Assembly: GCA_947095535.1 (NCBI GenBank)
Contig: OX352773.1
Span: 167,102,438 to 167,166,437, forward strand
Direction of reading: 5' to 3'
DNA from: Poecilobothrus nobilitatus
Taxonomy: Eukaryota > Arthropoda > Insecta > Diptera > Dolichopodidae
DNA length: 64,000 bases
The notes under the pieces were generated by a model that had not been told where the DNA came from, ran no database searches, and saw nothing but the letters and a program-made list of their open reading frames with translations. Positions within the stretch are counted from its first letter, which is position 1; each line of letters opens with the position of its first letter. Positions 106-62,751 of the stretch are shown piece by piece. The position numbers and the translations under genes are program-made.

Positions 106-586
106 ATGGATTGGGGTGCACTTGGTAAAGTTTTAACAAATAATAATATACCTGTATTTCAACCTTCATCTAATTACAATAATTCAAATTCTGATGAAGA
201 CTTAAAAGAATTGGCAGAATATTTAAAAAAACTTCAAATTTATCATGATAAAGTTTTAAATAATATAAATAATATTTTTGATAATGCAATACCACATGAA
301 CCACTATCATCATCATCATCATCTAATCAACAACAACAACATTTAAATGATGAAAATGATTATTGGAAAAAAAATTCTGATGATATTGAACAAATGACAA
401 TTAATTATAATAATGATGATATTTATGGTTCAAAAAATTATAATGAAATAAAACGTGGTCTAGGATTAACACCAGCTTTTATTTTATCAGGATTAGCTAT
501 TATTGGTATTATAATGATTGCAATTTTAATTGCATATGAAAAAAGAAAGAAAAAAAATTCTACAAGAAATTATGATTATGTTTCTG
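106..586 (+). CDS. V1: first coding exon, single-pass membrane protein
   Basis: The family is not recognised. The exon has 160 codons plus one base. It starts at an ATG (MDWGALGKVL) with no signal peptide. A Ser run and a Gln run lie near residues 66-78, followed by an Asp/Asn-rich stretch. One hydrophobic segment spans about residues 122-143 (from LTPAF to ILIAY), and a strongly basic tail (EKRKKKNS) follows. The frame stops 27 bases past the donor gtatgt at 587, which cuts a Gly codon after its first base, so this is a 5' exon and not a complete gene. The acidic and neutral N side with a basic C side predicts N-out, C-in topology by the positive-inside rule. It is the first member of a same-strand array with identical exon-end phase. 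Its partner exon is unknown; the exon at 62675 is the best candidate. Confidence 0.72.
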
Positions 587-3107
587 GTATGTTCTTTTTA
601 TTTTTTTTTAAATAATAATAATATAAATATTAAAAGTTGTGATTTTTAAACTGAAGTGAGTACACAGCAAATTTAATTTTAAATATTAAATTTTATTATT
701 ATAAGTATAAATAGTGTCAAATAATTAAAAATTTAATATTTTAATATACCTTTTTTACTTTAACTAAAGATATTTTTATTTTAATTGATGACACTTTAAC
801 TTTAAGTGATGAAATTTTTACTTTAAATGTAGATTTTTTTACTTTAAGTGCAATATCAAGTATATATATACATTAATATTAGATCCATATGTATATATGT
901 ATTACGTAAATTAAATATATACTAGTATTCGCCCACCTCTCGATATTCGAGGTGTTTTAATTAGCAATTTTAAAAAAATATTGATATTGTAAGATGGGTT
1001 GTACTGAATATTTATAATTTAAAAAAAAAAAAAAAATGAAAGTTGGTTGTTAAATCATTGAGTGAAAGGGTTTTAAATATCTATCATTTACAGATTAAGT
1101 AAATATTATGATGTATTAAATATTTTAACATAAATGATTGTAAGAAAAAATTTTCACTTAAAGTAAAAATGTTTTTACTTAAAGTAAAAATTTCTTCACT
1201 TAAAGTAAAAATTTCTTCACTTAAAGTAAACATTTCTTAAGTTAAAGTAAAAAGGATTTGGGTATGTTTATGTCATTGTCTGCAAAATTGATTATTTTCA
1301 TTGTTTATCTATCTTCAATCCCTATTCCCCACCCCATCATATATATAAAATAATTTTAATCAAAATTAAAAAATAATTATGCAATTTTAGATACAATCTG
1401 CCAGATACAAAATAAGTTTTTTGAATAAAATTAATTAAAAAAAAAAATTATAACTCTAATAAAAAAAAAAACAAATTATATACTAATATTGACACCAGTA
1501 TATATTATATTGAGGTATTGAGGGTCATTAAGATAGGTAGTGCTACTGGTAATAGTGGTTGTAATAAACAATAAATAAATTATTGAACCCAGAGGTGTAG
1601 GGTGTATCTATAAAGGTTTTTAAAACTTATAATTTCAATATGTCCTTTTACTTTATTAAAAAAAAAAAAAAAAAATTAGAAAATCAATATTTTTATTCTT
1701 GGAATTTACCTTCATTTATATATATATATGTATACAGTTATTTTTGACATAATCTTTTTATTTTCATAATAAAATAATAACTATAACTAGATAGGTAGTT
1801 AATTACTATTTTTTATAAAATTCATTAAATTCATTTCTATTAGGACATAATATATAAAATATAAAAAAAAATCAATTTTTAAAAAAAAAAATTTAAGTGT
1901 ACTTTTTGTGCAAATAATATGTACATAAAATTCATATATAATGTACTAATAAATATATATGGTTGAGTACATAGTATAATTTATTAGTAGAGTAAAAAAA
2001 ACTTCCACGTGTCTATGTATACAATATACATATGTATGTATGTAGTTAAAATTAATTAATTATTAACTATTATATATAGATTTTTTCATTTAATTCTTAA
2101 TATGTTTAACAGGGTGTCTCGTGCTCTAGATGGTTTTTTTTTAAATGGATGATCGAAAATATCAAGGCAAAAATTATTTTCATTATTTTAAAAGTTATGA
2201 CACCTTAATATTGTAGTACCTATTATTTAATTTTATTTTCATAATAGTTTAAAAAAAATCTAAATATAGAATTTTAAAGCTTATTAAAAGCAGCTTGATT
2301 ATGATTTTTATCGCAACAAAAAAACTTAATTAAAATGCAATTATTTTATGAAATAAAAATTTTTCCTAGAAAATCATAAAGAACTTTTTTTGTCCTATTA
2401 TAATTTCCAAAAATTTTAAACTAGAAAAGAAATAGGATACTTAAATTGCAAGGGAATATTTTGATTTAAAATTCCGATTCCGGACTGGGGAACTCTAGAG
2501 CAATACCTAATAATGTTTTAGAAAGCAGATTTAATAAATTTTAAAATTCTATATAAAGTACTTAGATTTTTTTTTCTAAATCATTTCGTATTAATTTTAT
2601 AGAGATTGAAATTATTTATAAATAGTTAAAGCTCTATAACGTCTAAAATAATGAAAATAGATCTCCTTCGCGCCTTCCTCAATGCTTCCTTCCCTTCTAT
2701 ACATTTTTATGTTTGTCTAGATATGCTCGATGACTCATTCTTAGGAACAACATCAAGACACGGACACACTGTATAATAATTTCAATATTTCTATAGAATA
2801 TTTTTCTGGTTTTTTTTTTTTTTTTTTTAATTTTATTTATTTTCAAATTAACAATAACACAAAAAAGTATCTAATAATACATTACAGTAAAATAAAAACC
2901 TTTATTAAATTTATAGTTTTTCCAGTATTAAAACGGTATTTGATTCAAATAGAATTACAAATTTTCATGATTATTATTGAAATTTTATTTTTCATATTAA
3001 ATTAATAACTATTTAATATTAAATTAAAATATTTAAAAATAAAATTTTTGTTGAAATAAATACTCTATCAAAAAATACAAAAAAAAACAAAAAAAAAAAC
3101 ACAAAAA
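587..3107. other. Non-coding interval V1-V2
   Basis: Intron or intergenic DNA. It holds the foldback repeat at 749-1255, many poly-A and poly-T runs and AT dinucleotide stretches. No coding exon was recognised. A slightly less A+T-rich patch at about 2640-2770 shows no convincing open frame. Confidence 0.5.
749..1255. repeat. Foldback element built from ACTTTAAGTG-type repeats
   Basis: The left arm (about 749-852) repeats TTTTTACTTTAAGTG-like units on the top strand. The right arm (about 1148-1255) holds the reverse complement (CACTTAAAGTAAAAA) four to five times at intervals of about 20-26 bp. The outer ends match as inverted repeats, CCTTTTTTACTTTAACT against AGTTAAAGTAAAAAGG. About 300 bp of unrelated sequence separates the arms. 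This is the structure of a foldback or MITE-like element. No clear target duplication was found. Confidence 0.6.
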
Positions 3108-3558
3108 ATGTCTATTTTTAATATTTTTAATTCAAGTGAAACATTATTTAATATATCAAATATTATAAATGATAATGAAACAGATAATAATCAAGAATCA
3201 TTACAAATATATGAAAAATTTTATAATAATAATAATATTATTATGAATAAATTATCATCGGAAAATTTTAATAAATTTTTTTTAAATAAAATATATTTAA
3301 ATCAAGAAAATTTTACTTTAAATAATTATGAAAAAAATGAAATCGATGAAAAAAAATCATATTATTATGAAAATAATAATAATGATAACAATAATTATAA
3401 TAATAATAATAAAGTATATACAAATAATAAATGTTATCCAATATCAAAATATGTTTTTATAATAATAACTATTATATTAATAATAATATTATTAGCTTTA
3501 CATAAACGTAATAAAAGAAAAAGGAAAATACAAACAACAAAAGTTTGTATATGTTCTG
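3108..3558 (+). CDS. V2: first coding exon, single-pass membrane protein
   Basis: Unrecognised family. There are 150 codons plus one base from ATG (MSIFNIFNSS) to a donor at 3559, gtaata, the weakest donor of the set. The N side is very Asn-rich, with long runs of N and NDN around residues 85-103, mixed with Tyr, Glu and Lys. One membrane segment spans residues 115-131 (YVFIIITIILIIILLAL), followed by the most basic tail of the array (HKRNKRKRK) and a short Cys-containing end (VCICSG). The split codon is Gly in phase 1, as in V1. The open frame ends 12 bases past the donor, so more exons are required or the product is very short-tailed. Asn runs mirror the AAT/AAC-rich base composition and should not be over-read as a domain. 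Confidence 0.68.
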
Positions 3559-8905: not shown

Positions 8906-10241
8906 AGGGTGTTCAAAATTGAGGTATCATTTTGATTTTGCCGCTATTTTTTTTTCTACCTATAATTTTTATACGAGATTTCTTTAGGTATATTCTAAAT
9001 ACATTCCGGTTAGTTAATATGGAACGTTACACGAAGGAACAACGTGTTTTTGTTATTACAACATTTTTTGAAAATGGTAAAAGTTTTCAAGATGTAATTA
9101 GGAAATTTCGAACAAAATTTGGTAGAGAAAATGCTCCAACAAATCGTGCCATCAAGCTGATGGTTGATAAATTTCTAGAAACTGGATCTGTTCTTGATAA
9201 CAGAGACAACATTTATCAACGTAGTGACCGTTCAACCGAGAATGTAGCAGCTGTGAGCAGAAGTGTTGAAGAAGATCCAAAAACTTCCATTCGTCATCGT
9301 TCGCAGCAATTAAACATCAAACCATCCACATTATTCAACATTTTGCATCGTGATCTCCATTTAAAGGGTTATAAGATCCAGATGACGCAAGAATTAAAAC
9401 CAACTGACCATGCATTACGTCGGCAATTCGTTTCTTGGGCAATCGAAAAACAAGAAGAAAATGAGAATTTTTTAACAAAATAATCTTCACCGACAAAGCT
9501 CATTTCCAGCTCAATGGCTACGTCAATAAACAGAATTGCCGCATTTGGGGTGAAGAGAATCCAAGGGTTATCTTAGAGCAACCAGTACATCCACAAAAAG
9601 TTACGGTGTGGTGTGGTTTGTGGTCAGGAGGAATCATCGGACCATATTTTTTTGAAAACGCAAATGGAAATGCGATTACGGTCAATGGAAATCGCTACAG
9701 GGAGATGATCCGAAGCTTTTTGTGGCAGGAAATTGATGTTTTGGACGTAGAGAATATATGGTTTCAACAGGACGGTGCCACTTGCCACACAGCAAGAGAA
9801 ACAATGGATCTTTTGAAGGAAAAGTTCGAAGATCGCATTATTTCTCGTAGAGGAGGAGTGATGTGGCCACCAAGATTGTGCGATTTGATACCGTTGGATT
9901 TTTTTTTGTGGGATTTTGTGAAATCGAAAGTGTACAGCAATAATCCCACAACAATTCAAGAGCTTAAAAACAACATTATCGAGCAGATTTCAACCATTGA
10001 TCAACAAGCAGTTTATTGAACAACGTGATTCAGAATTTTGGTAAAATATTGGAGGCCTGCTGAATTAGTAGAGAGGGCCACTTGGCCGACATAATTTTTC
10101 ATTATTAACCGGAACCTATTTGTAATAAATTAAAATAAAAATATATTTAATATTTCAAAAAAAAAGTCTTTTTTTATTAAAATTAAAATGATATATTTTG
10201 AATAATAAAACCTCAAAAAACTTAAAAATGATACCTCAATA
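8906..10241 (+). mobile_element. Decayed Tc1/mariner-superfamily transposon
   Basis: Terminal inverted repeats share the core TTGAGGTATCATTTT (8919-8933) and its complement AAAAATGATACCTCAA (10224-10239). The left end reads TAGGGTGTTCAAAATTGAGG, in keeping with a TA target. The body holds a broken transposase. A 'GGTGTTCAAAATTGAGGTATC'-type terminus is common in insect IS630/Tc1/mariner elements. Both sides are A+T-rich non-coding DNA. Confidence 0.75.
9019..10017 (+). pseudogene. Mariner-like transposase, frameshifted
   Basis: The first part (9019-9481) begins MERYTKEQRVFVITTFF, a helix-turn-helix DNA-binding region typical of insect mariner-like transposases. The frame is lost near 9478 in a poly-T stretch and reopens one frame over, reading FTDKAHF (first catalytic Asp; the usual E is K here), then WFQQDGATCHTA (second Asp), then CDLIPLDFFLWDFVKSKVY with the third Asp. 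The spacing from the second Asp to the CDL Asp is 36 residues. The frame ends at 10018, while related codons continue out of frame to about 10085. The frameshift and lost C-terminus make it inactive. In the family this enzyme cuts and pastes the element. It belongs to the transposon and has no evident link with the array. Confidence 0.78.
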
Positions 10242-14495: not shown

Positions 14496-14856
14496 ATGGT
14501 GATTTTAATGACAAATGAAACAAATTTTTTCAATGAAAATAAATTTAATCACAATGATATGAATTTTAAAAATAATAATATTACAAAATTTGATTTAATT
14601 TTAAATGATAATAACAATATTAATAATAATAATTTTGATATTAATGATTTAAATTCTATTAAATTTAATTTGGATTTAAATTTGAATGAAACAATAATGT
14701 CAGCTGATGATATTGAAGAAAATGTTAATAGTTATCCGGTTACAAAACATATTGCTGAAATAATTGTTTTTTGGTGTATAATTGTTATAATTACTTGTTC
14801 TTTAATTTTTTTACATTATAAAAGAAAAAAATTTAATTCACGTTATATATTTTTAG
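14496..14856 (+). CDS. V3: first coding exon, single-pass membrane protein
   Basis: Unrecognised family. There are 120 codons plus one base, from ATG (MVILMTNETNFFNENKF) to donor gtatgt at 14857, phase 1 in a Gly codon. The N side is rich in Asn, Asp and Leu with repeated NN and LNL patterns. One membrane segment spans residues 89-106 (IIVFWCIIVIITCSLIFL), flanked by HIAE before and HYKRKKFNSR after. The frame stops 6 bases past the donor. The exon's last bases are TATTTTTAG, so the exon end itself looks like an acceptor placed against the donor; see findings. The upstream 180 bp are T- and A-rich with no clear TATA box. It is one of a same-strand set sharing length, topology and phase. Confidence 0.68.
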
Positions 14857-16654
14857 GTATGTAAAATTTTTAAATAAATAATATCTATTAAAAATTATAT
14901 AATTTTACTTAATTATTATATTAAATTATTAAATATTAAATATAACATTTTTAAAATTTCCAATTTTTTTTTATTGAAAGTGTTCAATATCTAATCTAAA
15001 AACAAGTATTATACGATATAATTAATATAGAAATATATATATAATAAAATAAAAATAAACTAATACTTGTATAAGACAATAGATGTCGCACAAATAAAAA
15101 TATTTATTTAGTTGCAGCCGAGTAATCAACGGCTTACTGAAACTAATGATTCTAGAAACTGAAGGTTAGTCAAAATAAATGATAATATAGTGGGATATGC
15201 ACGCCATATGCTCTTTATGGGAGTGAAAAGGAGAAAAAAAATATATATATATATATACATACATATTTATATTTTTTTCAATAATTGTTTTTGTGGTTGT
15301 TTTTTGGTAGAGGGGATAGTCTGTGTCTAGTGTGTGAGAAATATTGTTCATTTAAACTTTATGAAATGCTCGTTTATCACAGCGGCTCATCGAACCAATT
15401 AATTCCCTTATTATTTAATAATTTATTCTAAATGTTTACATTTTAAATTACAAATGATATACAAGTTACTGTTTTTTTCATTTGTAATTTTTTTTGAAAT
15501 GAAATATGTTTATTACTAAATTTATTAAATAAAAATAACAATAATAAATTAAAATTCTAGTAAATAATTTGAATCAAAAAAAAAAATTTTTTTTTTATTT
15601 GAAACATCTACTGTTTATCAAAAACAACTGCGAACACGATTTAATTAATTTTAAATTACCGTGACCAGTGACCTGTGTGATGCAATTATTTTATTTTATT
15701 TTATTTTTTTTTTTATTTTAATTAAAGTGTTCTCTTATTTACTTAAAAAAAAAATAATTTATAAATTTAAAAATTTCTAATATAACTTCATAAATTGAAA
15801 AAAAAAAAAAATTTTTGTCACAAATAACAAATCATTTGTTGAACAAAAAAAAAGCAACAAAAACAAACATACTTTGCGTAAAAAAAAACTTGTTTTAATT
15901 TTTTTTTTTAATAAATTAAAAAAACCAATGATTAAATTTCATATATACATTATACATTATACCTAGTATACCAGATACCGAACATATACCAGATATTTGC
16001 ATAAAAATAAAACTAACAATAACTGATATTACTTCAGAAAAAAAAGTCTTCAGTTTAAGTGATTTTCATTAAGGTTTTGAAATATTAATTAAAAAAAAAA
16101 AAAATGAAATAATATATTAACACTTTAATGACCGACATAACGAGTATAATACTTGCCCTTATTATTTTGAAAGTAAAATTGATCAAAAAAAATTTTTTTA
16201 ACTAGTATATATGTAATTAAAATTTCCATTTTGAATGGTAATTTCCATTAAGACAGTAATTTTTTTAATTAATTCTATTAAGCCAACCATTTACAAATAT
16301 TACATCCTCACTTAACGGTTAGACGTCATCTTTTTATACCTTTTTTATATTCAAAGCTGCAACTTTTCATTCCTGTTTGTTAAATTTTTTTTTGAAACTG
16401 AAAAATAGAAATTTTTCATTCAGGTTTTTTGAAATTTCTTTCATACATGTTTTCTGACTATGACATGATTTTTAGCTGTTACTAAATACGGTGAAACTTG
16501 AAAATTTTTCTAAAGTTCTGAACTATTCTTTTTAAAAGTAAAATATTTTTTTTTATTATGGTCATGCACAAAAAGTAAAATATAGTGAAAATTTTATAAA
16601 ATAAAAAATAATTTTCAAATAAAATAAACGCTTCAAAAAAGAAAATTACTCTAT

Positions 16655-17955
16655 TTTTAGCACATTTTTAGCAAAAAAATTTTGAAAAAATGTGCTTATT
16701 AGTTTCACTCTGTCCGTCCGTCCGTCCGTCCGTCTGTTTACAAAACTTCTACACCGTTAAAGATAGAGAAAAAAAATTTTAACCATGGGTAGGTCTCATA
16801 AAAAAAATAATTTTGTGGAACAACTTTTTCATGTAGCCCCATCCATTACGGAGCTACAGCCCCTCAAACTTTGAAAAAGCCCTATTTTCAAATGCATATA
16901 TCTTATGTTCTGCTTAAGATTTTTTCAATCTGAAAACGTCATTCGACAGGTATTTCTTATTATATTCAATATTATACAATATTTTTAAATTTAATATTTA
17001 AATTTACCGTTATGTGAAAACCAAATTTTGCATGATTTTTCTACTTTCATAACTCCGGCACGCTTTTAGATAGTAGCTTGAAATTTTGAGGCAAGAAAGA
17101 ACTTTTAGAATTAGTATAAGTTTCCTCAGAAAATTTTTTTGGACCACCCCCTGTTTATGAGCTATTAGGGCTCAAAAATTGAAAATTTGCTATTTTTAAA
17201 CACCTGTAACTTAGTAACCTGTACACATTTTACTTCGCCAAGATATAAAAATTAAAGCTACGGTACTATATTTTAACGTGTGGTAAAGGTTTATTTTAGT
17301 TGTAAAGGGTTCCAAAGTTGCAGCTCTTCAAAATTGCGAAAAAGCCCCATTTTCAGATATATATATCTCAGGCTCTGCTTAATAGTTTTGCAACCTAAAA
17401 CCGCCAGAAGATCGAAAATTTTATTGTCTATATAAAACAATATCAAAATTATGTAATATTTTGTAATTTACTATTTAAATTTACCGTTATGTGAAAACCA
17501 CATTTTGCATGAAATTTCTTTTTTCATAACTCCGGCACGCCTTTAGATAGGAGCCTGAAATTTTGAGACAAGAAAGAACTTTTAGAATTAGTACAAGTTT
17601 CCTCAGAAAATTTTTTGGTACCACCCCCTCTTTAAGAGTTATTGCGCCACAAAAATTGAAAATTTGCTATTTTTAGACACCTGTAACTTAGGCACCTGTG
17701 AAAATTTTTCTTCGGCAAGGCATGAAAATTAAAGGTTCAATAATATACTTTTACGTGTGTTAACGGCTTTTCTTAGTTATAAAGGATTCCGGACTTACGG
17801 CCTCTCAAAATTTCAAAAGAGTCCTATTTTCACATTTTTTCTTATTACATGAAATTTTCAAATTTTTGTGCAAGTCACAATTCTAAACAGTTTGTATTGA
17901 GTTTTGGAAATGTGCGCTTTTAAAAACCGTTGGTTTACATTCTACCTTGTTTTAT
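16655..17955 (+). repeat. Dispersed repeat family R1, longest copy
   Basis: It begins TTTTTAGCACATTTTTAGC, carries a (CCGT) microsatellite at 16710-16732 followed by CTGTTTACAAAACTTCTACACCG, and ends ACCGTTGGTTTACATTCTACCTTG. A unit of about 0.5 kb is duplicated inside: ACCGTTATGTGAAAACCA occurs at 16993 and 17484, each followed by CATAACTCCGGCACGC. Other copies lie at 22779, 33333 and, inverted, at 55590. It is non-coding and its class is unknown. Confidence 0.65.
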
Positions 17956-18169
17956 TGTAATTTTTAAACGCTTAAAAGAAGGTTCCCTCCTGTCATTTTA
18001 AAAAGTGTAAAGAAAAGGGTTTAAAAACCGGAATAGAAAACATTGATATCCAACCACCACCTTAGTTATTTGAAAAATCTTTCTATTATAGATATTGACA
18101 TTTATAGAATTTGTGTCCTTTATTTCAGATAATTTTTATGTATTTTGAATTACAAAAAAGCATTTAACA

Positions 18170-44746: not shown

Positions 44747-47246
44747 GTACGTTATTTATTTTTTATTTTTTTTTGTTTTCTTTTAATATTTTCTATTTAC
44801 AATGTGTATATAAAGTAGTAATAAATGTGAAAATATTTGAAAATATTTTAGAAATGGTGCATTTACATATACTTGATGATTAACATTTGCCCGTTTATTC
44901 GCCTGTCCATTCGCCTGTCAGAACGATAACTCAAAAAGCATCAAAATCTAGTCATATAATTGATTCAAAATATTTTTGAAACAAATCCTATTCTTTTTAG
45001 TAAATGTGAAACCACACCTTGGAGTATAGGTGGTTTTACAAATATATAGATCACCAGTTTACATATCTTAAATATACTGATAAGAAGGTTACAAATTAAA
45101 ATGGGCAAGTTATGTAACGGGACAAGACTTTTACAAAATTTTCAATTATTAGGATCATATTTTCGAATAGATTCCATACAAATTTTTGATCCGATTTATA
45201 GTTATATATCTTTATTATCTTCAGAACTTATGGCTTAGTTAGGTTACGAAATTGAAATTGTATAAGAAGATAAGTAATGCAATAGGGCAAGTACATTAGA
45301 AAGTATTTGTAATTGATTTCAACAAGGCTTGGTACAGCTATCATACAAATTTTTCGATCCATAATTGAATGTAGAAAATTGCAACTTCTTCAAAAAATAT
45401 TAAGAAACAATCAATAAATTGCAAAAAAAATAGTGAGTTGCAACAATTATTAAGTTTGATTTTTTAAAATGATGGAATAGATGGATAATATGTTGTTTAA
45501 ATGACGGACAATAGATTTTTAAACTTCGATTTTTTTAAAGTATTTCTGCAGTGTGTTTAGTTCAAAGAAAAAAATGGTCTAAAATTTCGCGCTTCGCTTA
45601 ATTTATAATGCAGCACTTGTTCTATACATTAAGTTACTAGATGAATTTTTTGTCCCTCTTTATTATAATATTTTAATACAAAATTACAATAAATGAATTA
45701 ACAATAAATGAATTGAATTATCGTATTATAATAGGTATCAGTTTATTCTTATATTGTAATCTGAGCTATATGGTCTGTCAAAATTTAGAAAAATAAAATC
45801 TATATTTATACAATATTTGAATAACAGGGGCCTCGGTGGCCTAGTGGGTAAGAGAGTATAAAATTCGCTGTAAACACCGAGGGAGTGTGGGTTCGAATCC
45901 TACACACGTGATAAGAGTTATTCCCCCTTACGACATTTACAGCCACTTACAGGTTATATTGTCAAAGGCTGTGTAATTTCCTGACCACATTTATGTTGCA
46001 GAGAAATGTATTAAAAAAAAAAACAACTTATTTGAATAACTCAACAGAATCAAACAAAATTCTCTGAAGAACCATCTCTTTTTTTCTTCTGGTTACTCAT
46101 AATCACGCCTTCCCTTAGAAGTCTATTGCAAAGTTGAAATTAATTTGGCTGTTAATATCTTTTCTGAAGTCATATACTATGACTGTATTAGATTGTGTAA
46201 GAAGTTTTCATCTGTGATTTTAAAAAATATATTTTATGTTATTTTTATCTTTTTTTTTTTTTTGTTTTTGCGAGGGTAAGTGGGAATCATCGAAAGACAC
46301 TATAAAGGGGTTAAAACGAGTACAAGTCCTCTATGAGTGTGTGTGACTTTAACCCACTAAACACCACCTCCCTTTTTTGACCGAACAATAGGTTATACGC
46401 TATTTAGTACTCATGTACTGCCTGGTCAGAGGAAGTTAAGGAATGAAAATTGATTTATATTGTGAACAAAGTTGGTAATATTCACCTTGAATCTTTGAAC
46501 GTTTGTAAATGTAATCATCACCAATTCTGTGGAACACATGAGGTGAGAGATGTTTTCACATTCGCGATGTTCGTACTACAAACGAATTTCCATAAGCCGA
46601 ATTAAATCTAAAAAGGTTTTCATAACTATACTTAACAATTTAAAAAAAAAAATTATGAAAACTGTTGAATGTTTTTAAAGTAAGTTAACACATAAAAAAT
46701 TTCATAAAAAAAAAATCTGAACTAAAGCTTAATTTCAACGGGGAATTATTACCTAAATTCTTAGCTTTAGAAATTCTACAAATTGAATTTTGTTCAACAA
46801 AAACTTTAGTTAATGAAGTCTTACAATCAATCCCTTACAGAATACAGATTCTATATAAATATAAAACTTTTTTAAAATTATGAAAAAGCTTTTTATATTA
46901 TTTTCTTTTATGTATATCTAAAAAAAAACCTACGATATTATTTAGTTGACGGTTTAAAAGAAAACGAAATCGGTATTATATTGTCAAAGGTTAGTTTTTT
47001 TTATTTAAGGTTTTTTCTGAGACTTCATAATGTCGACTAAAATTTTGATAACATTTCTTTTACAACCGAATATTATTAAAATATATTTGTAACATTATTA
47101 GAATATGTAATTTCCATATGTATATATTTAAAATAAAAAAAAAAAAAAGAACATAATGAACAACAACATAATATTATTTTACAATAATTAATATATAGTA
47201 ATGAATTTATTGATTTATTCAAACGTCAACATCGTATCGTTATGAT
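44747..47246. other. Non-coding interval V9-V10
   Basis: It matches 36474-38580 except for an extra 530 bp or so (46306-46836) of unknown origin, bounded by GGGGTTAAAACGAGTAC and TCTTACAATCAATCCC. It contains SINE copy 4. No exon was recognised. Confidence 0.55.
45827..46022 (+). mobile_element. tRNA-derived SINE, family A, copy 4
   Basis: It has GGGGCCTCGGTGGCCTAGTG, a B-box GGGTTCGAATCC, the body CGTGATAAGAG..CTTACGACATTTACAGCC and an A tail. It is the duplicated partner of copy 3. The two copies have diverged in the region between the A and B boxes. Confidence 0.78.
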
Positions 47247-47586
47247 ATGAAATTGAAAAATTATACTTTAGATATTAATAATGATTATTATGATAATGTT
47301 ACATTTACATACACCTTAAATGATAATATAACTGCTGAAGCAAGAGGAGGAGGTGGTCGTGGTGGTGGTGGTAGAGGTGGTCGTAGAGGCGGTGGAACTC
47401 GTTATGGCCATTCAAAAGGTTTTCGAGGTGCTATTGGTTATGTATCTTCTTCTGACGATACAGATTTTTCATTTTTAAGTTTTCTTTTATTTTGTTTGTT
47501 AGTTTATTGTTTATATGAATGTTATAAATATTATAAAGAAATTAAAGCAAATAATGAAGAGGAATCTATATGCTTAAATGAAACTG
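47247..47586 (+). CDS. V10: first exon, RGG-rich single-pass membrane protein
   Basis: Unrecognised family. There are 113 codons plus one base from ATG (MKLKNYTLDINNDYYD), phase-1 donor gtatgt at 47587. The first 36 residues equal V7, with one synonymous difference seen. The Gly/Arg repeat is shorter, the membrane segment (about 75-91, FLSFLLFCLLVYCLYEC) differs at many residues and resembles V9, and the last part (KANNEEESICLNETG) equals V7 again. Upstream in frame the homology to V5 continues for about four codons (SYRY) with no Met before a TGA, so this Met is the likely start. The 3' flank was later split by a piggyBac insertion, which does not touch the exon or donor. Confidence 0.73.
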
Positions 47587-47842
47587 GTATGTATGTTTAT
47601 TTTTTTTTATGAACCAAAAATTAAATTAAAATCTCTTCGAAATTTAACCTTATAGTTTGCAATTATAAAAATCTATGATTTAAAAATTAAAAATAAATAT
47701 ATTTTGATATTTAATTAAGTTTTTAAAAGTATATTTGTAAGATGTTTTTATTTTTAGTGTATTTGTCTTTTAAAATTAAAAATTTTTTATTTTTCTGAAA
47801 AGGACTTTCGAAATTAACACCTACGTTATAAGATTCTATTAA

Positions 47843-50229
47843 CCCTTAACCGCATGAATTTTTTTGTGTACTTGAAAAAATTATTTTTATGTTTGTCACA
47901 AGATTCGCTTACAAAAATTATTCAACAGTATATAAATTTTCTTTCGAGTTTTCCGAGAAAATGCGACTTTTCATTACTTGCATATCTGCAAGATCATGCA
48001 AATTGAAGCATTATGTGAAAAACTTTTTTATTAGTTTTTTTTTAAATATATTAATGAAAAGCTTTATTTTTAACTTTTAATTTGAGCATTTTATTTATAA
48101 CAAAAATTTTATTAGATTTATAACATTTCAGTTTTTTATAAAAAATACTAAGTTAAAAATATTTTTTTTTAAATTAATAAATTCATAAAACTTCATAAAT
48201 AGAAATATATAAATAAAAAGAATATTCATTTTTAGTTATATTATATAACAAGTCTAATTAATTTGATTTGATTTTATATCTACCAATTAAACTGTCCAAT
48301 TTATCAACTCCTCCCATATAAGAATTATATTCTTTAATAATGCTCGGACATTCGATTACACGTTGTCCTAATTTTTTATCAAACCGTTCCGATGTTTGTA
48401 AAGGCAATCGTCCTACGTAATTCGAAATAAGATTTACTATTTTCGTATCTTTCCAAGCAACTGTAGTTATATTTTTTCCATCAATATTTCCCACATATTC
48501 TATCGATGTACCTCGTGGATCCTTCTTCATTTCTTTATCATTTGGCAATTTGCAATTCGATATACGATTTCGACGAATCGTACCTAAGCATAGCATTCCA
48601 TTGTTTGTTAACTCAATTACTAACGGGATTGATGAATAATAATTATCGAAATATACTCGATAATTTAAATACTTTGGCACTGGACGCAATAATCTTATTA
48701 CTGTATTGGCGCTGGCCCCGAGATCTTCTTCTTCTGCTAAACGTTTTGCTGAGTCATTTTCTTGACCAGTGTATATTTCGAAATTATAAGAGAATCCAGA
48801 TTCGCCTGAGAGCACAAACAGTTTGTAGCCCCATTTGTGAGGTTTGTTTGCTAGGTATTGTTTTAAATAGTGTTTAGCCTTAGTGGAACAAAGCTGTTCA
48901 TCCACTGCTAAATACTGTTCCATTGGAACTTTTCGCAAATTTTTCAACAGCATATCAATAATTGGTCTTAACTTGAAAAGACGGTCATGAGCCTCATGTT
49001 CTCTAGGAAGCATATATTCATTATTGTTGAAATGTAAGTTTTGTTTCACTTTATCAAAATTATTCACAGACATTGTATTTTTTATAATTTCATTGCCAGT
49101 AATAGTCCCCCAATACCGACGGTAATCTGGTATTTGTATTATAGACATTAGAATACAAATTCCCAAATATTTTCTAATTTCTAAGCTGGTCAAACATTTT
49201 GAATTATTCAAATTTGTTTGACAGCTATACAAATTGCTTTCTTCAACAATTTTTTCTACAATAGAATTACCAAAAAGATAGTTAAAACAACTGTATGGAG
49301 TAGTTAAATTGCAAATTTCATCGGGTAAATCATTAGTACCCCGGAACATTATTTCATTTTCCGTCGCTAAAAAATCTTGTTGATGCCAAATTATATTTGG
49401 ATATGTTTTTTTTTTATTGGTTGTAGGAGGCGGTACTGCATTGGGCATTTGAACATTATCTTCAAATACAATAGGAATATTTGCAATGTCAAATAATGAT
49501 TCATAGTCTTGGTTTTCAATATCATAGTCACTTTGTTGTAGAATTTCCTCAGAGTCTTCCTCAAACTTTCGGTTTATTTGAACATTTACCTCAATATCAG
49601 CATCATTATTATCATCAAATTCATCTTCGCTTTCACTCCAATTTGCAATTATAGCTTCAAGTTCTGCTTCTGTCAATACAGGCCGACAAGTCATATTGCT
49701 GATAAAACAGAAATTTACTTATATTATGTAGGTAATAAGAAATAAAATAAATCAAAATACTATTGAATATTTAAATTCGTTTCGTTTCTATGCATGTTAT
49801 TGCATATATGCAATACAAAAATAAAGTTGATTATTGCATGATTATGCATATATGCAAGATAAACTTTTATTTTGTTATAGTACAACTATCATTATCACAA
49901 AACTATACTATCATAAACAAAACTGTAGTATATTTAATTATTACCTTGAAATTTATACTTACATAACAAAATAATACAAAAATCTTCTAAAATTACATAA
50001 AAATCATGTATCATACTTCAACATCAACATGTAACTCGGCCACTGACAAATATTAATACATTTATTATATTATTAGAATATAGTTAGAACATCGCCTACT
50101 TGAATTATAACAAAGAAATACATATATAAATTAGAAAATATTGAATACAACCAAAACATGTGCCTCTAAACATTAATATTACAACAATTATTCTTGTATT
50201 GCATATGTGCAATAAGATGCGGTTAAGGG
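47843..50229 (-). mobile_element. piggyBac-superfamily transposon
   Basis: A 2387-bp element lies between TTAA target duplications (47839-47842 and 50230-50233). Its inverted ends are CCCTTAACCGCAT and ATGCGGTTAAGGG. Subterminal copies of TGCATATNTGCA occur at about 47978, 49811, 49845 and 50196, some as near-palindromes, as expected for transposase-binding sites. The matching site downstream of V7 (39265-39285, ATTCTATTAATAAAAAA) has no insert, so it entered after the segmental duplication. Confidence 0.88.
48258..49694 (-). CDS. piggyBac transposase, C-terminally truncated
   Basis: There are 478 codons from an ATG (MTCRPVLTEAELEAI) with an acidic N-terminal region. The catalytic DDE/DDD core carries Asp265 (YLAVDEQLCS), Asp350 (YRVYFDNYYSS) and Asp464 (YMGGVDKLDS), each in the expected context. 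The frame stops at GRYKIKSN, where family members continue with about 100 or more residues including a Cys-rich C-terminal domain. About 400 bp of non-coding DNA lie between the stop and the element's end, so the C-terminus was probably lost by deletion. The enzyme excises and inserts DNA at TTAA in the nucleus; this copy is probably inactive despite its open frame. The strand is opposite to the array, and the plus-strand open frame at 48506 is its shadow. Confidence 0.85.
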   Translation of the reverse strand: MTCRPVLTEAELEAIIANWSESEDEFDDNNDADIEVNVQINRKFEEDSEEILQQSDYDIENQDYESLFDIANIPIVFEDNVQMPNAVPPPTTNKKKTYPNIIWHQQDFLATENEIMFRGTNDLPDEICNLTTPYSCFNYLFGNSIVEKIVEESNLYSCQTNLNNSKCLTSLEIRKYLGICILMSIIQIPDYRRYWGTITGNEIIKNTMSVNNFDKVKQNLHFNNNEYMLPREHEAHDRLFKLRPIIDMLLKNLRKVPMEQYLAVDEQLCSTKAKHYLKQYLANKPHKWGYKLFVLSGESGFSYNFEIYTGQENDSAKRLAEEEDLGASANTVIRLLRPVPKYLNYRVYFDNYYSSIPLVIELTNNGMLCLGTIRRNRISNCKLPNDKEMKKDPRGTSIEYVGNIDGKNITTVAWKDTKIVNLISNYVGRLPLQTSERFDKKLGQRVIECPSIIKEYNSYMGGVDKLDSLIGRYKIKSN

Positions 50230-52440
50230 TTAATAAAAAAACTTTTTTTTTAAATTAATTTAAAAGCTTTTTTACATCTTTTGATTTTTTAAATCTAAAG
50301 TTTATATTTTAGGATTTAGCTAAAATGAAAAAGGATTTTTTTTTGTTTCAATTGGAAAATTTCAAACAAACAGCAACAAATTTTTAAAATTTATAAGTCA
50401 AAATAAATAATCTGACAAATGGCGCGCATTATTTAAGTCCAAGATTAAAATTATCTTATCCCATATAGAAACAATAGACACTAGAAATTAAATTTTACAT
50501 AGAAATGTACCTATCATAATATAACAAAAAAAAAAAATGAAAAATATGTTTTTTCATTTGATTTATTTTTATTTTAAACAATTTATAATATTCACCATAA
50601 CTTTTATATTAAAATTAGATCACAATAACAAAAAATAAATAAATTATAATAAAATTAGACGATATTAACTTTTTGCATTTGCATTAATTTATTTTCGATG
50701 GATAGTAGTCCCAAAAATGATAGTCAGATTTGCCCCATTTTTGAATGCAGATAATTTTTTATCCGTTTAAGTTTTTAAAACAAAAAACTTGCAGCTTCTC
50801 CACTTGTGTCAGCCAAATATTATCAGATAAAGGGGGATAAATCGTGAAAGAAATATTGACTTTGAACAAACTTTCAACTAGTTTATTGTCTATTTGCAGC
50901 TTCGTTATGCAAGACACAGTTGAATATTGTCACCAAAAATTTCAGAAATCTGTAAAGTTTCATCGGTAAATTCCTCTTTAAGGTCTAATGAATACAATTC
51001 AAGGAGTTTCTTTGTTTTATTCAACATATTCCTCACATTGACAAAAATCTGTCAAGAACAAAGTTATACCTTTCGTACAATATTTTAGAAACTGATCTCC
51101 GTCTTTCTATCTGCTAATTAGGTCTGTCTATAATAACATAAAATGGGTAAAACAAAATTTATTACTAGAGTATTTTAACTGGAATCACTTTTATTCATAA
51201 TTTATTCATTAAATTCCTTCTGCATTCACTTGCATTGTACATAGATGTTTTCTAATCAGATTCTGTGAGATCTTTTGCGATTAGCGATATCATATAACGC
51301 TTATCGAATTTCTAAATAATTTGCATAGGAAGTATCATTTCGAGCAGTCGAGCTTGTTTCTAATAAGCTTTAAAAAACAAATCAGTTTCTCTTCACCATG
51401 ACTGTATAACACCAAAATAGATTACTTCTGCTGAACACAGTAACTGAAAACGACCCTCCAGAGCTGATTTCAATGAACTAAGTTTTGGTTGTGGGCAGCG
51501 CATAAAATCAATTCTGCCAATTGATTAATATCTCTGAATCTATAGTTTGAATACTAGAATAAATAATATTATCGTGTGATTATGATCGTTTCAGCCGAAA
51601 AGTTTACTATTCAAACTCCTGTCAGTTCATACAGAAATAAATAATATCACTATATAAAATTAATAGTAAGACAGCTGCCAACATTTCTAACCAGCAAAGT
51701 ATTCATAAAATATATTGCATATGCAAAATATAATATATATACATATACATATTACATATACTATTAGAATTAAAACAACTTTAACTAAAAATCAAATATA
51801 ACTTTAATTAACTTAATTTTAGCGCAATCAGTAACCTTAGTCTATTTATTTATTATTTGCTTAACCTTGGTTCAATCTTGACATGTTGGGAGTTGAACCA
51901 AGAGATTGCTCTAGTTTCGTTTAAATCCGTGAATTAGGTAATTTTACGTACATAAGTAAACCACTTTGATCTTCTCTTGACATGTTAGAAGATATATCGA
52001 AGTTGCATATTACATACGTTTGCATTAATGCATTAAGCAATTTGCTTGTTCAGTGCTAGCAAAAAAACAAATAAATAAAATTAAAAAAAATGTAGATAAT
52101 GTAGCATTGTAAGTCATAGTAAATTATAGTAATAATACCAGCAGTAGTAATAGTAGTAACAATTATTACTATTCTAACAACTAACATTATTTACTAACTT
52201 ATTAACCCTTGTAAATGATGACGTTTCAGTAATAGTTTTTTTTTTGTAATAGTTCACTAAATGAACAATTTAACTGATGTTTGAATGAAGTAAATGTCAA
52301 TGTCAATTAAAATAACTATTCGTAAAGTTTCTGCTTTAGAAAGAAGGATTTATGCTAACTAAGTGAAAACCACACTGTAATTAAAAACCAAAGCAAAAAA
52401 ATAGAGTAATTGTTTGAATAAAAATTAAGAATCAAAATTT

Positions 52441-52606
52441 TTTTTTTTTTACTTTATTCTCCAGTCACATAAACGTGAGAAGGAAATTACACAGTCTTTT
52501 ATTTTCAGGTATGGATGTAAAGAATACTTACAACGTGTGTGCGGGATTCGAACCCACACTACCTCGGTATTTACAACGTATTTCATACGCTCTTACTCTC
52601 TTAATC
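52441..52606 (-). mobile_element. tRNA-derived SINE, family A, copy 5, decayed
   Basis: On the minus strand it keeps the B-box GGTTCGAATCCCGCAC and the tail body but has lost the first bases of the A-box region. It contains the plus-strand string TTTTATTTTCAGGTATGG, which looks like a ratchet motif but derives from the SINE body. Confidence 0.65.
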
Positions 52607-52756
52607 AAAATTTCTTAAAAAAATCTTTGTTTATTTTTTAGAAACATGGTAGTAAAAATTTATAACATTGGTTTTCTAAAAAACAAAAAAAAAAAAAAAT
52701 GTAATCATCAACGGCGCCTCACCCCATATCCAATATGCATGCTCACACATCATGCA

Positions 52757-52989: not shown

Positions 52990-53203
52990 ATGAATGATTA
53001 TAATTATTATAATTTAATTATTTCAAAAAATTTGACAAAATTTTCAACTAATGTTCATATTTTAAAACGTTTTAAAAGAAATTCATATGCATATAGTGAT
53101 TCAGTATCAATTTTTTACACTTATTTAATTGGTTTTATTATATTTTCATTGTTAATTTATTTTAGTTGTTTTTATTATAAAAAAAGACGTAAAGAAATAG
53201 GTG
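52990..53203 (+). CDS. V11: shortest first coding exon of the array
   Basis: There are 71 codons plus one base from ATG (MNDYNYYNLIISKNLTK) to donor gtatgt at 53204, phase 1 in Gly. It has a short N side with no low-complexity repeat. The membrane segment spans residues 43-63 (FYTYLIGFIIFSLLIYFSC) and aligns with V5 (FTYILGFIIFCLILYGI), linking this small unit to the Gly/Arg-rich group even though it has lost or never had that region. The tail is basic (YYKKRRKE). The frame stops 12 bases past the donor. Unrecognised family; the small size alone would make it a weak call, but phase, donor and segment match the neighbours. Confidence 0.62.
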
Positions 53204-53464: not shown

Positions 53465-53499
53465 TTATTATTCCAAAATTTAAAAAAAAAAACATAAAA

Positions 53500-53727: not shown

Positions 53728-54093
53728 TATAATTATCGCATATTACGATGTATAAAGATAAACGCAAACATAGAAATAAATAAAAAAAAATAGGTTAATT
53801 TTTTTCAAAAATTAAATATATGTATGTATGTATATATTTAAATTTTTATATAATTAGTTAACAGTACAGAAACCGAATTAAAAAACAAAACTTATATTTT
53901 AATATTATAATCTCTAATTAGACCAATACCTGTTTAACTAAAAAGTTTTTTGTTCATTGTATCATGTTCAAAAATATCCCAGGTTAAAAAGTAGGCTGTG
54001 TTCATAATTACAATTTATAACTAAAATAGCTAATTTTAATTTACGGTTAAATATTATTCCCCAACTGAAATTTTATACAAAATAATACAAAAA

Positions 54094-54270
54094 GGGGGCC
54101 TCGGTGGCCTAGTGGGTAGTAAACACCGAGGGAGTGTGGGTTCGAATCTCACACAAGTCGTAAGAGTTATTCCCCCTTACGACATTTACAGCCACCCCTG
54201 AACAGGAAAGACTGTGTAATTTCCTGTCCACATTTATGTGCCAAAAAAATGCATTAAAAAAAAAAATAAT
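54094..54270 (+). mobile_element. tRNA-derived SINE, family A, copy 6, internal deletion
   Basis: GGGGGCCTCGGTGGCCTAGT is followed directly by AAACACCGAGGGAGTGTGGG, so about 21 bp between the A and B boxes (the AGAGCGTATAAAATACGCTG segment of other copies) are missing. The B-box and 3' body are intact, and it ends in an A tail. Confidence 0.72.
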
Positions 54271-55589
54271 ATAAAATAAAATAAAAATTTGTTTTCTCTT
54301 TGTTTTTTATTTCACTTTTATGTTTGTTTACTCTTAACTTTGACACAAAATTGTTAGCATTTGCCATTTGAAATATAGGAAACGTCAAGCAAATATATAA
54401 TTCAGACGGATATTAAGAAACTTTTAAATCTATTCACATTAGATTTGAAGGAATAACATTTTAAAAAATTTTTTAAAGTATTTATAAAACGTATAAAGAA
54501 AGAATAAGTGGCAAAAGTATAAAATATTCCAAATATTAAAATCCAGTCAAAAAAATATGCAGCGGGATTGATTTCAAAATAATTTTAAGCTGAGTCCAGT
54601 CAAATCCACACTGCAAAAATGGTCACACAAAAAAATTAATTCTTGACAACTAAAAATTTGGTAGAATATAGAAAATATTATCTCAAATACATCCAACAGA
54701 AGATGTATAAAATTTTATTCATGACAGTTTTAAAATTTAAAATAATTTATTTTTGTTTACTTGTTTAACGAAAAAACTTTATCTATATTATTTTTATAAA
54801 AAATTTAATAAAAAGAAAATAAAGCCTAGGAATATTTAAAGAGCAATTGTTTTGTCAGACCTGTTGTCATCCAAGAACTTTTGATTGTCTAATTAAATTC
54901 TAGCTGAAGTTCCTCATGAACATTCTATACAATTACCCTCGATTCCATATCTTTATTTTAGTTTAGACTGTTTAAAACGTCTTTCCTATAGTTGAAAAAT
55001 TAACTTCAAATGTTGTTGTTGACAATTTTTACAACAACAAAAAACTCAAGTTACATTTAAGCGTCACGAATAAAATTTTTTATTCGATCAAATTTTACTG
55101 ATACGAATTTTATTAAAATTTTATTGCTCTTTCGCTTAATTTCGGCAAAAAAAAGATAAAAATATTTAAACGAATACAAATTTTCATTTTTATAAAATTT
55201 TGTTTAGAACGAGCGAGGAAACCTATTGTTTGTGTTCCTTTTACAGGAAAAAAGTAGTTGAAAGTTGTTAAAGTAGTAGTTAGCAGTAGTTAGTAAATGA
55301 AATAGTAATTTAACTTAACCGTATTTACTCCTATTTACTCTTTCTCAAAGACTGGTATATTTGGGTGTAGAAAAGAATAGTTTACTCTGTAAAACGAACG
55401 CAAATATTATAAACAAAATTAAAATATAAAATATAAAAGCTTAGAATTTTGTCAAAAATTTGAAAGTTTTACAATTTGTATTAAAATTTTTAATCATTTT
55501 GTATTTTTGTAACTGCTACTTAATAAATTCCTATAGTTAAGTACATAATATGTATGTATATATATGTAAAATTTCATTATTATTATATG

Positions 55590-56385
55590 AAAACAAGGTA
55601 GAATGTAAACCAACGGTTTTAAAAACGCACATTTGCAAAAAACAATACAAACTGTTTAGAATTGTGCAAAAATTTGAAAATTACATTGTGTAATAAGAAA
55701 AACGTGAAAATAGGTACTTTCTGTAATTTTGAGGGGCTGTAAGTCCGGAACCCTACATAACTAAAAAAAAAACAGTTAACACACATAAAAATATATTATT
55801 GAACCTTTAATTTTCATGTCTGGCCGAAGAAAAATCTTTACAGGTGCCTAAGTTACAGGTGACTAAAAATAGCAAATTTTCAATTTTTGAGGCGTAATAA
55901 CTCTTAAAGAGGGGTTGCTACCAAAATATTTTCTGAAAAAACTTATACTAATTCTAAAAGTTCAGGTTTCTATCTCAAAGCGTGCCGGAGTTATGAAAAA
56001 AGAAATATCATGTTAAATTTGGTTTCAACATAACCGTAAATTTAGATAGTAAATTACATAATATTGCATAATTTTGATATTGATTTATAAAGGTAAGAAA
56101 AATTCGTTTTTAGATTGAAAAAATGTTAAGCGAAACATGAAATATATGCGTTTAAAATAGGGCTTTTTCAAAGTTTGAGGGGCTGTAGTTCCCTGATGGA
56201 TGGAGCTACATGAAAAACTTGTTCTACAAAATTAATTTTTTTATGAGACCTACCCATGTTTAAAATTTTTTTTCTCTATTTTTAACGGTTTAGAAGTTTT
56301 GTAAACAGACGGACGGACGAACGGACGGAGTGAAACTAATTGGCACATTTTTTCAAAATTTTTTTGGAAATGTGCTAAAAAGGAC
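55590..56385 (-). repeat. Dispersed repeat R1, inverted copy
   Basis: It reads from AACAAGGTAGAATGTAAACC, through complements of CATAACTCCGGCACGC and the CCGT tract (GACGGACGGACGAACGGACG, 56310-56330), to TGTGCTAAAAA. It is the mirror image of the copy at 16655 with one internal unit missing. Confidence 0.65.
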
Positions 56386-57057: not shown

Positions 57058-57484
57058 ATGTCGTCTCTATTATATATTGATAATAATTCTAGTGATAAAA
57101 AAAATATAATTGAAACTGAATATAAAAAAAAATTAAAAATGAATTCATATTATTATTATTATCCAATATATTCTAATTTAAATAATAAACTTATAAAAAA
57201 TTCCATTAATAATAATAATAATAATCATTATAACAAAAGTGATAATAATTATTATGATATTAATGAAAAAATTTATATAAAAATAAATGATAATAATAAT
57301 AATGAAAATAATAATGAAACATATTATATACGTGATTTAATAAATAAAAGAATTTCATATAATAATGCATTATATTATGGTTATGTATTTGCTGTTATTA
57401 TAATTGTTATTATAATTCGTTTAATAATAATGAGCTGTAAAAAACCAAAAAAAAAAAAACTAAAATATCCGGTTGCATATTATG
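57058..57484 (+). CDS. V12: first coding exon, Asn-rich single-pass membrane protein
   Basis: Unrecognised family. There are 142 codons plus one base from the first in-frame ATG (MSSLLYIDNNSSDKKN); the frame is open further upstream to 56938 but without an ATG. Tyr runs and several Asn runs fill the N side. A membrane segment spans residues 107-124 (from YGYVFAVIII to RLII) and contains an Arg near its C end. The tail is very basic (CKKPKKKKLKYP). Donor gtatgt at 57485 is phase 1 in Gly. The frame stops about 40 bases later. It fits V1-V4 better than the Gly/Arg group. The Arg inside the membrane segment could place the helix higher or mark a partner contact. Confidence 0.66.
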
Positions 57485-61097: not shown

Positions 61098-61453
61098 ATG
61101 AGAATTTATGATTCGATTAGAAATAAATTAGAAGAAGATACGGTTTGGAAAAAAAATTTTACGTAGATTTTTAATAAATATTCTTATCCGATTATATTGG
61201 GCAATAGAACATATACAATTAATGTGACTAAATCACCTATTTATTATTCAAAAAATACATTTTATAAAACAAAAATAATACCAACAAATTCATATAATTC
61301 TGGGAAAAATTTTCCTATTAATTATTTTTATTATTATAAAATTTATTTTTATTTTCTTATATTATTCTACAAAAAAAGATAAAAAAAAATCTTCAGAACA
61401 AATATCGATTCGATTACAAGATACAAATAATAATGATGACAGTGATAATAATG
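61098..61453 (+). pseudogene. V14: decayed family exon with intact donor
   Basis: ATG (MRIYDSIRNKLEEDT) opens a frame that meets TAG at 61164. The same frame then continues through IFNKYSYPIILGNRTYTINV and an Asn/Tyr/Lys stretch. Near 61305-61312 (GGGAAAAATTTTCC) the frame shifts by one: in the new frame the reading is IFLLIIFIIIKFIFIFLYY, then STKKDKKKS, then a long polar tail (LQDTNNNDDSDNN), ending on donor gtatgt at 61454 in phase 1. The membrane segment has a central Lys. One nonsense codon and one homopolymer frameshift suggest a young pseudogene; an assembly error in the homopolymer could explain the shift but not the TAG. Confidence 0.6.
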
Positions 61454-62674
61454 GTATGTTACAAAATTTTAGTTTAAAATTCACAGTTATAATTATTGAG
61501 TAAAATGTGTATAAAAGATATTTTTAAGTGTTTTTTCTAACAAAAATAGTTCAAAAGTGTATAATAAATTTTTTATAACGTTTGTGACATATTAATTAAA
61601 GGAAATAAAAGAATTACGAAAAAATACATATACATAGATAGCGTCGAACCGTCCGTACAGACGTAAAATAACTCAAAAATGTCAGTTTCGCTATTAAAAT
61701 TTATCAAGTTCGAGTGACAGGTTGGATATAAGTATATAACTCATAACTCAGCCTCTAATTAAACTTTAGATATCTGAAATGTTATCAAAAAAAAGTTAGG
61801 TTTTATATCAACAACTTCTGTAAAATTTGATTAATCTAATATGGAACGATTTCGGATACCTGTGAAAAAGATGGTAATGTGAAATCTTGTTAAAGATGAT
61901 GAAGTTTTATTTCATCAACTTTTGTAAAATATGTCTGGATTAGTGCAACGGGATTAAATATCTGTCATACAATTCCGAAATATACAAAAATATGTTTATC
62001 TTAAGTACTTAAAAAATAATTAAAATTTATGCAAACATTATATATTATGTTCGTGCGGGTCTCCTAAATTCAATTTTAGATTACTGTATATATTTCTCTA
62101 TATTTTAAAGATATTACTCATTTACATAAATGTAGATCTGTAATAGATCTGTGTAGATCTGTAAATTTTGAATAAATGAAAATCGATGTCAAATTTCTAA
62201 ACGTTGTCCATAAATGAAAAAAAAAAATCTGATAGACGTCAAAATTAAAGAATAAAATTGTACTAGTTAAAAAAATTTTTGTATGTACTTTGTTTAGTCT
62301 GAATCCCGTGACGTCGGAAATATCGTTAAAAAAAAAACTGCAATGCAACCTGATTCAATGTAAAATTTATGAACCCAAACGCATTGTGTTGAAAATACAA
62401 TGTGTTTTGTTTATAACCTTAATCACAAAGTACTGTTTTCTGTAACTGTTACTGTACTGTTTATTATAAATTATTATTTACCCTACATTCACAGGCATTT
62501 AATATTAATGCAACCATTTCTATTGGGTTGTTGTTTATAAAATACATACATAATTTGGTATATTCTCTATAATCATTTTATGGTTATGTTATTGATAATC
62601 TTACATATTCAAAATTATCAAATTGCTGTTTAACTATAGATTACTTGCTTAAAAATATTCTTCTGTCTCTATAG
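61454..62674. other. Presumed last intron of the array
   Basis: A+T-rich DNA with no exon recognised. Its 3' end has a good polypyrimidine tract (TTCTTCTGTCTCTATAG). The minus-strand frame at 62118-62348 is T-rich chance sequence. Confidence 0.4.
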
Positions 62675-62751
62675 GTGCTGAGTTACATCATGTAAATCGG
62701 AGTGTTATTATTAAATATATAACGAAATTAAAAAGGTCTTTTGCAAAATGA
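62675..62751 (+). CDS. Candidate shared terminal exon (24-codon tail)
   Basis: The acceptor TTCTTCTGTCTCTATAG|GTGCTGAG is strong for this region. Entering in phase 1, the phase of every family donor, it completes the split codon (Gly in most, Arg for V5) and reads AELHHVNRSVIIKY, then ITKLKRSFAK, then TGA at 62749. The tail is basic with a small hydrophobic patch and would be cytoplasmic under the N-out model. It lies past the last array member, where a constant exon of a variable-first-exon locus should be. Against it: 24 open codons can arise by chance, an internal GTAAAT (62692) might be a donor, and it could belong to V14 alone. A poly-A signal variant ATTAAA follows at about 62952. Confidence 0.45.

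Follow-up and report, generated by a model that had tools for sequence, protein, structure and literature searches.

We analysed a 64,000-nucleotide stretch of the genome of the dolichopodid fly Poecilobothrus nobilitatus (assembly GCA_947095535.1, contig OX352773.1, forward strand; hereafter the window), which carries a row of short coding units that we interpret as candidate alternative first exons of a single gene. Window position 1 corresponds to 167102438, and the numbering is continued past the window, with zero and negative values upstream and values above 64000 downstream; for this purpose DNA was fetched from 150 kb upstream and 100 kb downstream. Whole-genome searches covered 943.8 Mb in 84 contigs, the primary assembly being described as 944 Mb and the Dolichopodidae as low in GC (PMC10749331).

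On the + strand of the window lie ten intact units of one plan, as a first-pass annotation made from the sequence had described: an ATG and a polar N side come first, then a single membrane segment, then a donor in phase 1, with a stop shortly after it. U1 (106-586, donor 587) has an Asn-rich head and a paralog at -19493, and U2 (3108-3558) ends at donor 3559, which reads GTAATA. U3 (14496-14856, donor 14857) and U4 (30252-30573, donor 30574) are followed by U5 (35198-35699), whose head is RGG-rich and whose donor at 35700 is preceded by C. RGG-rich heads are also found in U6 (38622-38994, donor 38995), in U8 (44266-44746, donor 44747, GTACGT) and in U9 (47247-47586, donor 47587), a young paralog of U6. 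U10 (52990-53203, donor 53204) combines a short head with a membrane segment related to that of U5, and U11 (57058-57484, donor 57485) has an Asn-rich head. All 11 donors previously listed are GT, with G before the donor in ten and C at 35700; the hexamer GTATGT is present at eight of the ten intact-unit donors and the preceding G at nine, in agreement with the earlier description of G|GTATGT in most. The eleventh donor, 61454, falls in a broken unit. Four broken units had been reported beside at least ten intact ones, and our recount gives three, all on the + strand: U7 (39756-39990), a copy of U5 without membrane segment and donor; 36449-36474, an exon end with its donor only, from the block duplicated with 44722-47842; and U12 (about 61279-61453), which retains a membrane segment and donor 61454 with no in-frame ATG before them.

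Strand and phase were surveyed by scans. In the window, a search for open reading frames (ORFs) of at least 60 codons with an ATG, an N side of at least 25 and a membrane segment at a hydropathy cut of 1.9 returned 13 ORFs on the + strand, nine of them units and four others without a listed donor, and none on the - strand, which bears out the confinement of the units to one strand; U6 was missed, its hydropathy peak of 1.88 lying below the cut. A strict scan of the whole 314 kb, with phase left free (ORF of at least 60 codons, membrane segment, donor score of at least 3), gave 20 ORFs on the + strand and none on the - strand. The best donor was in phase 1 in 19 of these and in phase 0 in one, a bias of P about 1e-8 on the assumption that phases are independent and equally likely, which those of duplicated exons are not. 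U1, U3, U4, U8, U9, U10 and U11 are in the strict set, and U2 and U5 lie outside it.

Across the extended region we count 32 candidate first exons over 251 kb, from -121533 to 129887, with 13 upstream of the window, ten within it and nine downstream, 97949 among the latter. They comprise the 20 strict-scan ORFs plus 12 units that a looser scan, homology or inspection by eye contributed. Least secure are -90165, -45122 and 106163; the count omits -2556, 122070 and 122853, which have no good donor, 110410, with its start unsettled, and likewise the three broken units. In the 28 kb that precede -121533, and past the constant exons described below as far as 164000, neither the strict nor the looser scan showed a unit; very short units would escape them, and the 39-residue unit at -121533 was itself found by homology only. 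One first exon outside the window, 129854-129887, encodes just 11 residues (MGNSQRRPLFH), for which N-myristoylation is thinkable from the Gly at position 2. A whole-genome query with U8 matched five places, all within the array.

Past the last unit, 67-71 kb beyond the window, lie the two likely constant exons. C1 (131422-131602) has its acceptor at 131422 (TTTTTTTTTTCTATTTTAG) and starts with CG, completing the split codon as Ala, or as Pro after a unit with a terminal C; its own end is in phase 2, ahead of GTATGT at 131603. C2 (135198-135345), the last exon, has its acceptor at 135198 and a TAA ending at 135345. Joined, the two exons are open solely in the frame given by phase-1 donors, and all 32 units join them without a stop, partly by construction where the phase was hand-chosen. 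The resulting tail is a proline-rich sequence of 109 residues, APVVVTSSTH...LPPSYDQVV...YNPHYAGN, in which PPSY is invariant across a 12-row alignment (A1) and Pfam found nothing at E up to 1. Its only matches are C1 and C2 themselves, both in the 314 kb and in the whole-genome search, the latter scoring best candidates only. A phase-compatible exon past the last unit had been anticipated; the likely constant exon lies 67 kb beyond the window rather than at the proposed site near 62675. The exon at 62675 is ordinary, one of 23 comparable acceptor-plus-open-frame candidates on the + strand of the window (15 on the - strand), and we rejected it, further copies within the window having been sought with nothing better than E 0.25.

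The protein collection was searched with two single-unit queries, U8 alone and the 97949 unit joined to the tail. With the predicted protein of the latter (200 candidates, matches with E no higher than 0.01, under a length limit on proteins), we identify at least 11 relatives: six isoforms from Condylostylus longicornis (X1, X4, X5, X6, X7 and X8), three from Phlebotomus argentipes (X1-X3), one from Nyssomyia and one from Lutzomyia, four of the 11 bearing the name 'protein shisa-5'. All 11 have a differing N-terminus followed by a tail beginning PV[VI]VTSSTH. Within Condylostylus and within Phlebotomus, the different N-termini of the six and the three isoforms pass into an identical tail from the same residue, so that both flies share with the present locus the tail and the point at which the variable part ends. 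By eye, five of the six Condylostylus N-termini contain a membrane segment, X8 having 11 residues and none. Both species differ from the present one in number, with at least six isoforms (numbered to X8) and at least three, respectively, against 32 candidate first exons here.

Three of the Condylostylus N-termini have orthologous exons at this locus, each on the + strand with a phase-1 donor: X7 at -121533 (77% over 39 residues, E 3e-17), X4 at -56056 (49% over 101, E 6e-18) and X8 at 129854 (10 of 11 residues, E 6e-4). These exons flank the window on both sides, and we take Condylostylus LOC129611234 to be the ortholog of this gene. The remaining eight of the 11 N-termini gave no convincing match in the 314 kb (best E 0.012, - strand). 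Weaker blastp matches at E 0.001 pair -25695 with a Phlebotomus isoform and both 68964 and 78895 with X1; at E 0.005 Nyssomyia pairs with 106163, and the window has only the match of 3108 to X6 (E 0.007). Condylostylus isoform X1 had no match in the PDB at E up to 1. Together, the two-exon tail in compatible phase and the Condylostylus isoforms give good support to the earlier suggestion of variable first exons joined to constant cytoplasmic exons. The window units are placed in this gene indirectly, because of their strand, their phase and their position between exons whose counterparts in a relative lead into this tail.

Hydropathy places one membrane segment in 31 of the 32 units, the 11-residue unit at 129854 having none. 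Within 15 residues of the segment, Lys and Arg are more frequent after it than before it in 29 of the 31, and a net-charge criterion agrees in 28 (exceptions 35198, 44266 and 78895); an outside N-terminus is therefore predicted for most units. The outward N side proposed at first pass is thus likely for most units by charge, and unsettled for the RGG group because its heads are Arg-rich. An N-glycosylation sequon is present in 25 of 31 heads, and in 27 of 31 the part ahead of the membrane segment is free of Cys. Judged by hydropathy only, no signal peptide was apparent, the N-side maxima of nine measured window units lying between -0.54 and 0.70. Pfam applied to 20 of the 32 units found nothing above cut-off, including no cadherin domain; matches below it (Rifin, Duffy_binding, GtrII, MASE3, DUF2569 and others) we took as reflecting composition or membrane segments. 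Three IMG/VR stretches fit the U8 pattern, and none encodes a relative.

We propose that the locus is probably one gene of about 257 kb, measured from the first recognised first exon to the stop, with some 30 alternative first exons and a single two-exon tail, the window forming its middle part and its products being heads set on a Nedd4-recruiting tail. At the sequence level the proposal draws on the units, their shared phase, a tail of which no second copy was found and the same layout in the predicted proteins of relatives. Each unit would have its own promoter; a transcript would begin at one unit and run to the tail, and the phase-1 donor of the cap-proximal unit would be spliced across the intervening units to C1 and then to C2. 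The products would be single-pass membrane proteins, mostly of 150-280 residues, differing outside and within the membrane and sharing a proline-rich tail with one PPSY. By analogy with the known action of PY motifs, the tail would recruit Nedd4-family ubiquitin ligases. The head might choose the membrane partner, in which case each isoform would steer a different one to trafficking or degradation.

Several observations weigh against this proposal. The head-to-C1 junctions of this species are predictions from sequence, the relatives' isoforms are themselves predicted models, and the name LOC129611234 accompanies only three of the six isoforms from Condylostylus, the membership of the other three being deduced from isoform numbers and identical tails among other grounds. 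The N-termini of the 11 relatives include no clear ortholog of any of the ten units in the window. U8 alone, searched against 491 candidates, found no relative at E up to 0.001, and its predicted product of 269 residues is within the length limit; the collection does include insect proteins, a piggyBac control recovering 287, and no U8 product or near relative turned up in it. The phase-1 donor was hand-picked for 13 of the 32 units (the 12 added to the strict set and -90165, which scores best with a phase-0 donor), so the phase of these 13 is no independent evidence, the donor of the three in the window being that of the first-pass annotation. Unit -45122 requires a GC donor, and the looser scan, over 264 kb, has 12 membrane-segment ORFs on the - strand, one with a phase-1 GTAA word. 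Finally, no common promoter word survived control. AAGCTTT or AAAGCTT occurs in 13 of 32 upstream 400-bp stretches, against a random mean of 4.0 and with none of 2000 draws as high, and after removal of six duplicates 12 of 26 units have the word at -550..-150 (mean 3.3, maximum 11 in 5000). We rejected it as a shared promoter word, since the -550..-150 interval was picked post hoc and random sets yield top words with P as small as 1e-5, against 1e-3 for AAGCTTT. CTCF-like words are too few to mark units.

How many heads are in use is a separate matter, on which the evolution of the units bears. On a second account of the same single gene, few heads would be used and most units would be relics of first-exon duplication on their way to loss. 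At least three broken units in the window fit this account, as do -2556, 122070 and 122853, which have a head and a membrane segment and no good donor, and the finding of clear orthologs here for only three of six Condylostylus N-termini. So does the rate of change: Nei-Gojobori distances for eight chosen pairs, calculated with AT bias ignored, gave Ka/Ks, the ratio of nonsynonymous to synonymous divergence, of 0.88 to 1.28 in seven of the eight (Ks 0.28-0.52), values that may in truth be lower, as the method probably underestimates Ks. The eighth pair, U6/U9, has a ratio of 0.62 overall, no amino-acid change in the first 32 residues, and nine nonsynonymous and no synonymous differences in the membrane region. 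Neutral drift, however, should have closed most of these frames. In a simulation of six of the eight pairs (hand-set distances, no indels, 2000 runs), five gained a mean of 7 to 14 stops and stayed open in at most 1 of 2000 runs, whereas the real pairs are open; U6/U9 stayed open in 174 of 2000 runs, and its coding indels are all multiples of three, which likewise argues against loss of constraint. Because pairs stay open while Ka is near Ks, we conclude that frames are maintained as the sequence changes fast; selection on the heads may be either diversifying or for composition and layout only. We regard the relic account as improbable, and because it keeps even that standing we go no further than probable for a gene with some 30 heads.

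An ordinary tandem family, in which every unit is a gene by itself with a second exon and poly-A site close by and the phase is inherited, would fit the tandem duplication evident in the window (the block 44722-47842 is duplicated, U7 copies U5 and U9 is a paralog of U6) and could draw on the 23 acceptor-plus-open-frame candidates on the + strand there. The genome search, however, found no second copy of the tail, and an identical tail stands behind different N-termini in Condylostylus and Phlebotomus. We also looked for private second exons through duplicated blocks, with a result that speaks against them: the near-identical U6 and U9 share only about 250-290 bp past their donors, and no coding exon is evident by eye in the alignment. 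Such a family is thus very unlikely. Equally hard to credit are heads transcribed as separate units and trans-spliced to the tail, an arrangement that would spare the cis introns of up to about 253 kb implied here (-121415 to 131422), yet one that does not need what is seen, all 32 units upstream of the tail on its strand, as cis-splicing does.

The gene thus proposed, with clustered first exons and one tail, resembles several known systems in layout. In vertebrate clustered protocadherins, tandem variable first exons encode an outer part and a membrane segment and are joined to common cytoplasmic exons. The protocadherin-like layout put forward at first pass stands as regards the variable exons, head and membrane segment sharing one exon in ten units of the window and in 31 of 32 candidates overall. 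It does not extend to the proteins, since the heads are short and of low complexity, the tail carries PPxY and the 20 units submitted to Pfam showed no cadherin domain. The sDscam genes of Chelicerata are described as having tandem 5' cassettes, each of several exons for immunoglobulin domains, and constant 3' exons, to which downstream cassettes are also joined (PMC4835542). This arthropod precedent shares with our locus the tandem 5' variable cassettes and constant 3' exons, and differs in that its cassettes are multi-exon and immunoglobulin-coding, whereas those here are single exons with a head, a membrane segment and no known domain. Because downstream sDscam cassettes also reach the constant exon, a strict cap-proximal choice need not hold. 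UGT1 and GCNT2 are likewise reported to join tandem variable first exons to shared later exons (PMC1885805). Those two encode enzymes, in contrast to the small membrane proteins with an adaptor-like tail predicted here.

For the tail, the nearest comparisons are Shisa proteins and Commissureless. The Shisa family has a cleavable signal peptide, and Commissureless is a short single-pass insect protein with no extracellular Cys. Shisa is defined in PMC10531659 by a cysteine-rich N-terminal domain; Shisa, Shisa-like (STMC6) and Commissureless are presented as short single-pass proteins with proline-rich PY-motif tails, several of them ligase adaptors (PMC10531659, PMC11399591, PMC5578492). PY motifs bind the WW domains of Nedd4-family ligases, and Commissureless, CYYR1 and WBP1L are reported to bind or recruit such ligases, with the Nedd4 contact of Commissureless reported as unnecessary at the midline (PMC5578492, PMC11399591). 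The Commissureless motif is of the LPSYDEAL type (PMC5578492). Our tail has PPSYDQVV and our heads are Cys-poor, and we set them beside Commissureless by description and motif only. With Shisa the gene shares a proline-rich cytoplasmic tail with a PY motif and, in 31 of 32 units, a single membrane segment. No six-cysteine head domain of the Shisa kind was seen, with no precomputed Pfam domain in the 11 relatives and 27 of 31 heads Cys-free; a genome search with Shisa_N found no match, but its controls gave none either, so this is no proof of absence. The tail appears Shisa-5-like by the relatives' names and the PY motif, as distinct from alignment with vertebrate Shisa-5. Unlike these proteins, for which we found no such array described, the head here is exchangeable through an exon array. 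Our description of the locus would be a Shisa-5-tailed gene with clustered first exons, and we assign it to neither the protocadherin nor the Shisa family. Among open-licence papers we found no description of such a locus; the relatives' isoforms exist as annotation.

Repeats and mobile elements are interspersed with the units. A dispersed repeat occurs at window positions 26869-27079, 31189-31397, 37653-37842, 45805-46026, 52427-52607 and 54072-54269; it has tRNA-like promoter boxes by eye (TAGTGGGTAAGAG ... GGTTCGAATCC) and is possibly a tRNA-derived short interspersed element. In the window, a tRNA search gave no matches, the dispersed repeat included, and Rfam gave none. A piggyBac transposase ORF lies at 48258-49718 on the - strand, its best match about 50% identical, and a mariner-type remnant at 8923-10019 on the + strand shows two overlapping frames and a DUF4817 helix-turn-helix match; the all-frame Pfam scan covered two frames of the first 15 kb on the + strand. 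A 142-bp tandem array of about five copies occupies 42300-43000; another repeat family, its members at most about 700 bp long, recurs in both orientations at 16654-17961, 33756-34160 and 55582-56381. Downstream of the gene, ORFs at 143986-163747 resemble, by eye, those of EMC7, an exosome subunit, an LTA4H-type aminopeptidase and a proteasome beta subunit, and would be useful synteny anchors for Drosophila.

Few known loci set many outer parts on one inside: the clustered protocadherins, the sDscams of chelicerates and, among enzyme genes, UGT1. In the present locus the common part resembles an adaptor for ubiquitin ligases, and the parts that vary are short, of low complexity and fast-changing. 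If our proposal is correct, a swap of heads would redirect a single degradation tail and diversify cell-surface control in modular fashion, and the gene would provide an insect system in which tandem-promoter choice can be compared with that of the protocadherins. A bolder and rather doubtful extension is a surface-diversity system independent of protocadherins and Dscam, in which some 30 fast-diversifying heads on a Nedd4-recruiting tail, one or a few per cell or tissue, would choose membrane proteins for removal, perhaps in the service of cell identity or in the face of changing parasites or mates. The same layout is seen in sand flies, where it has three heads, and the expansion of the array could thus be followed across flies.

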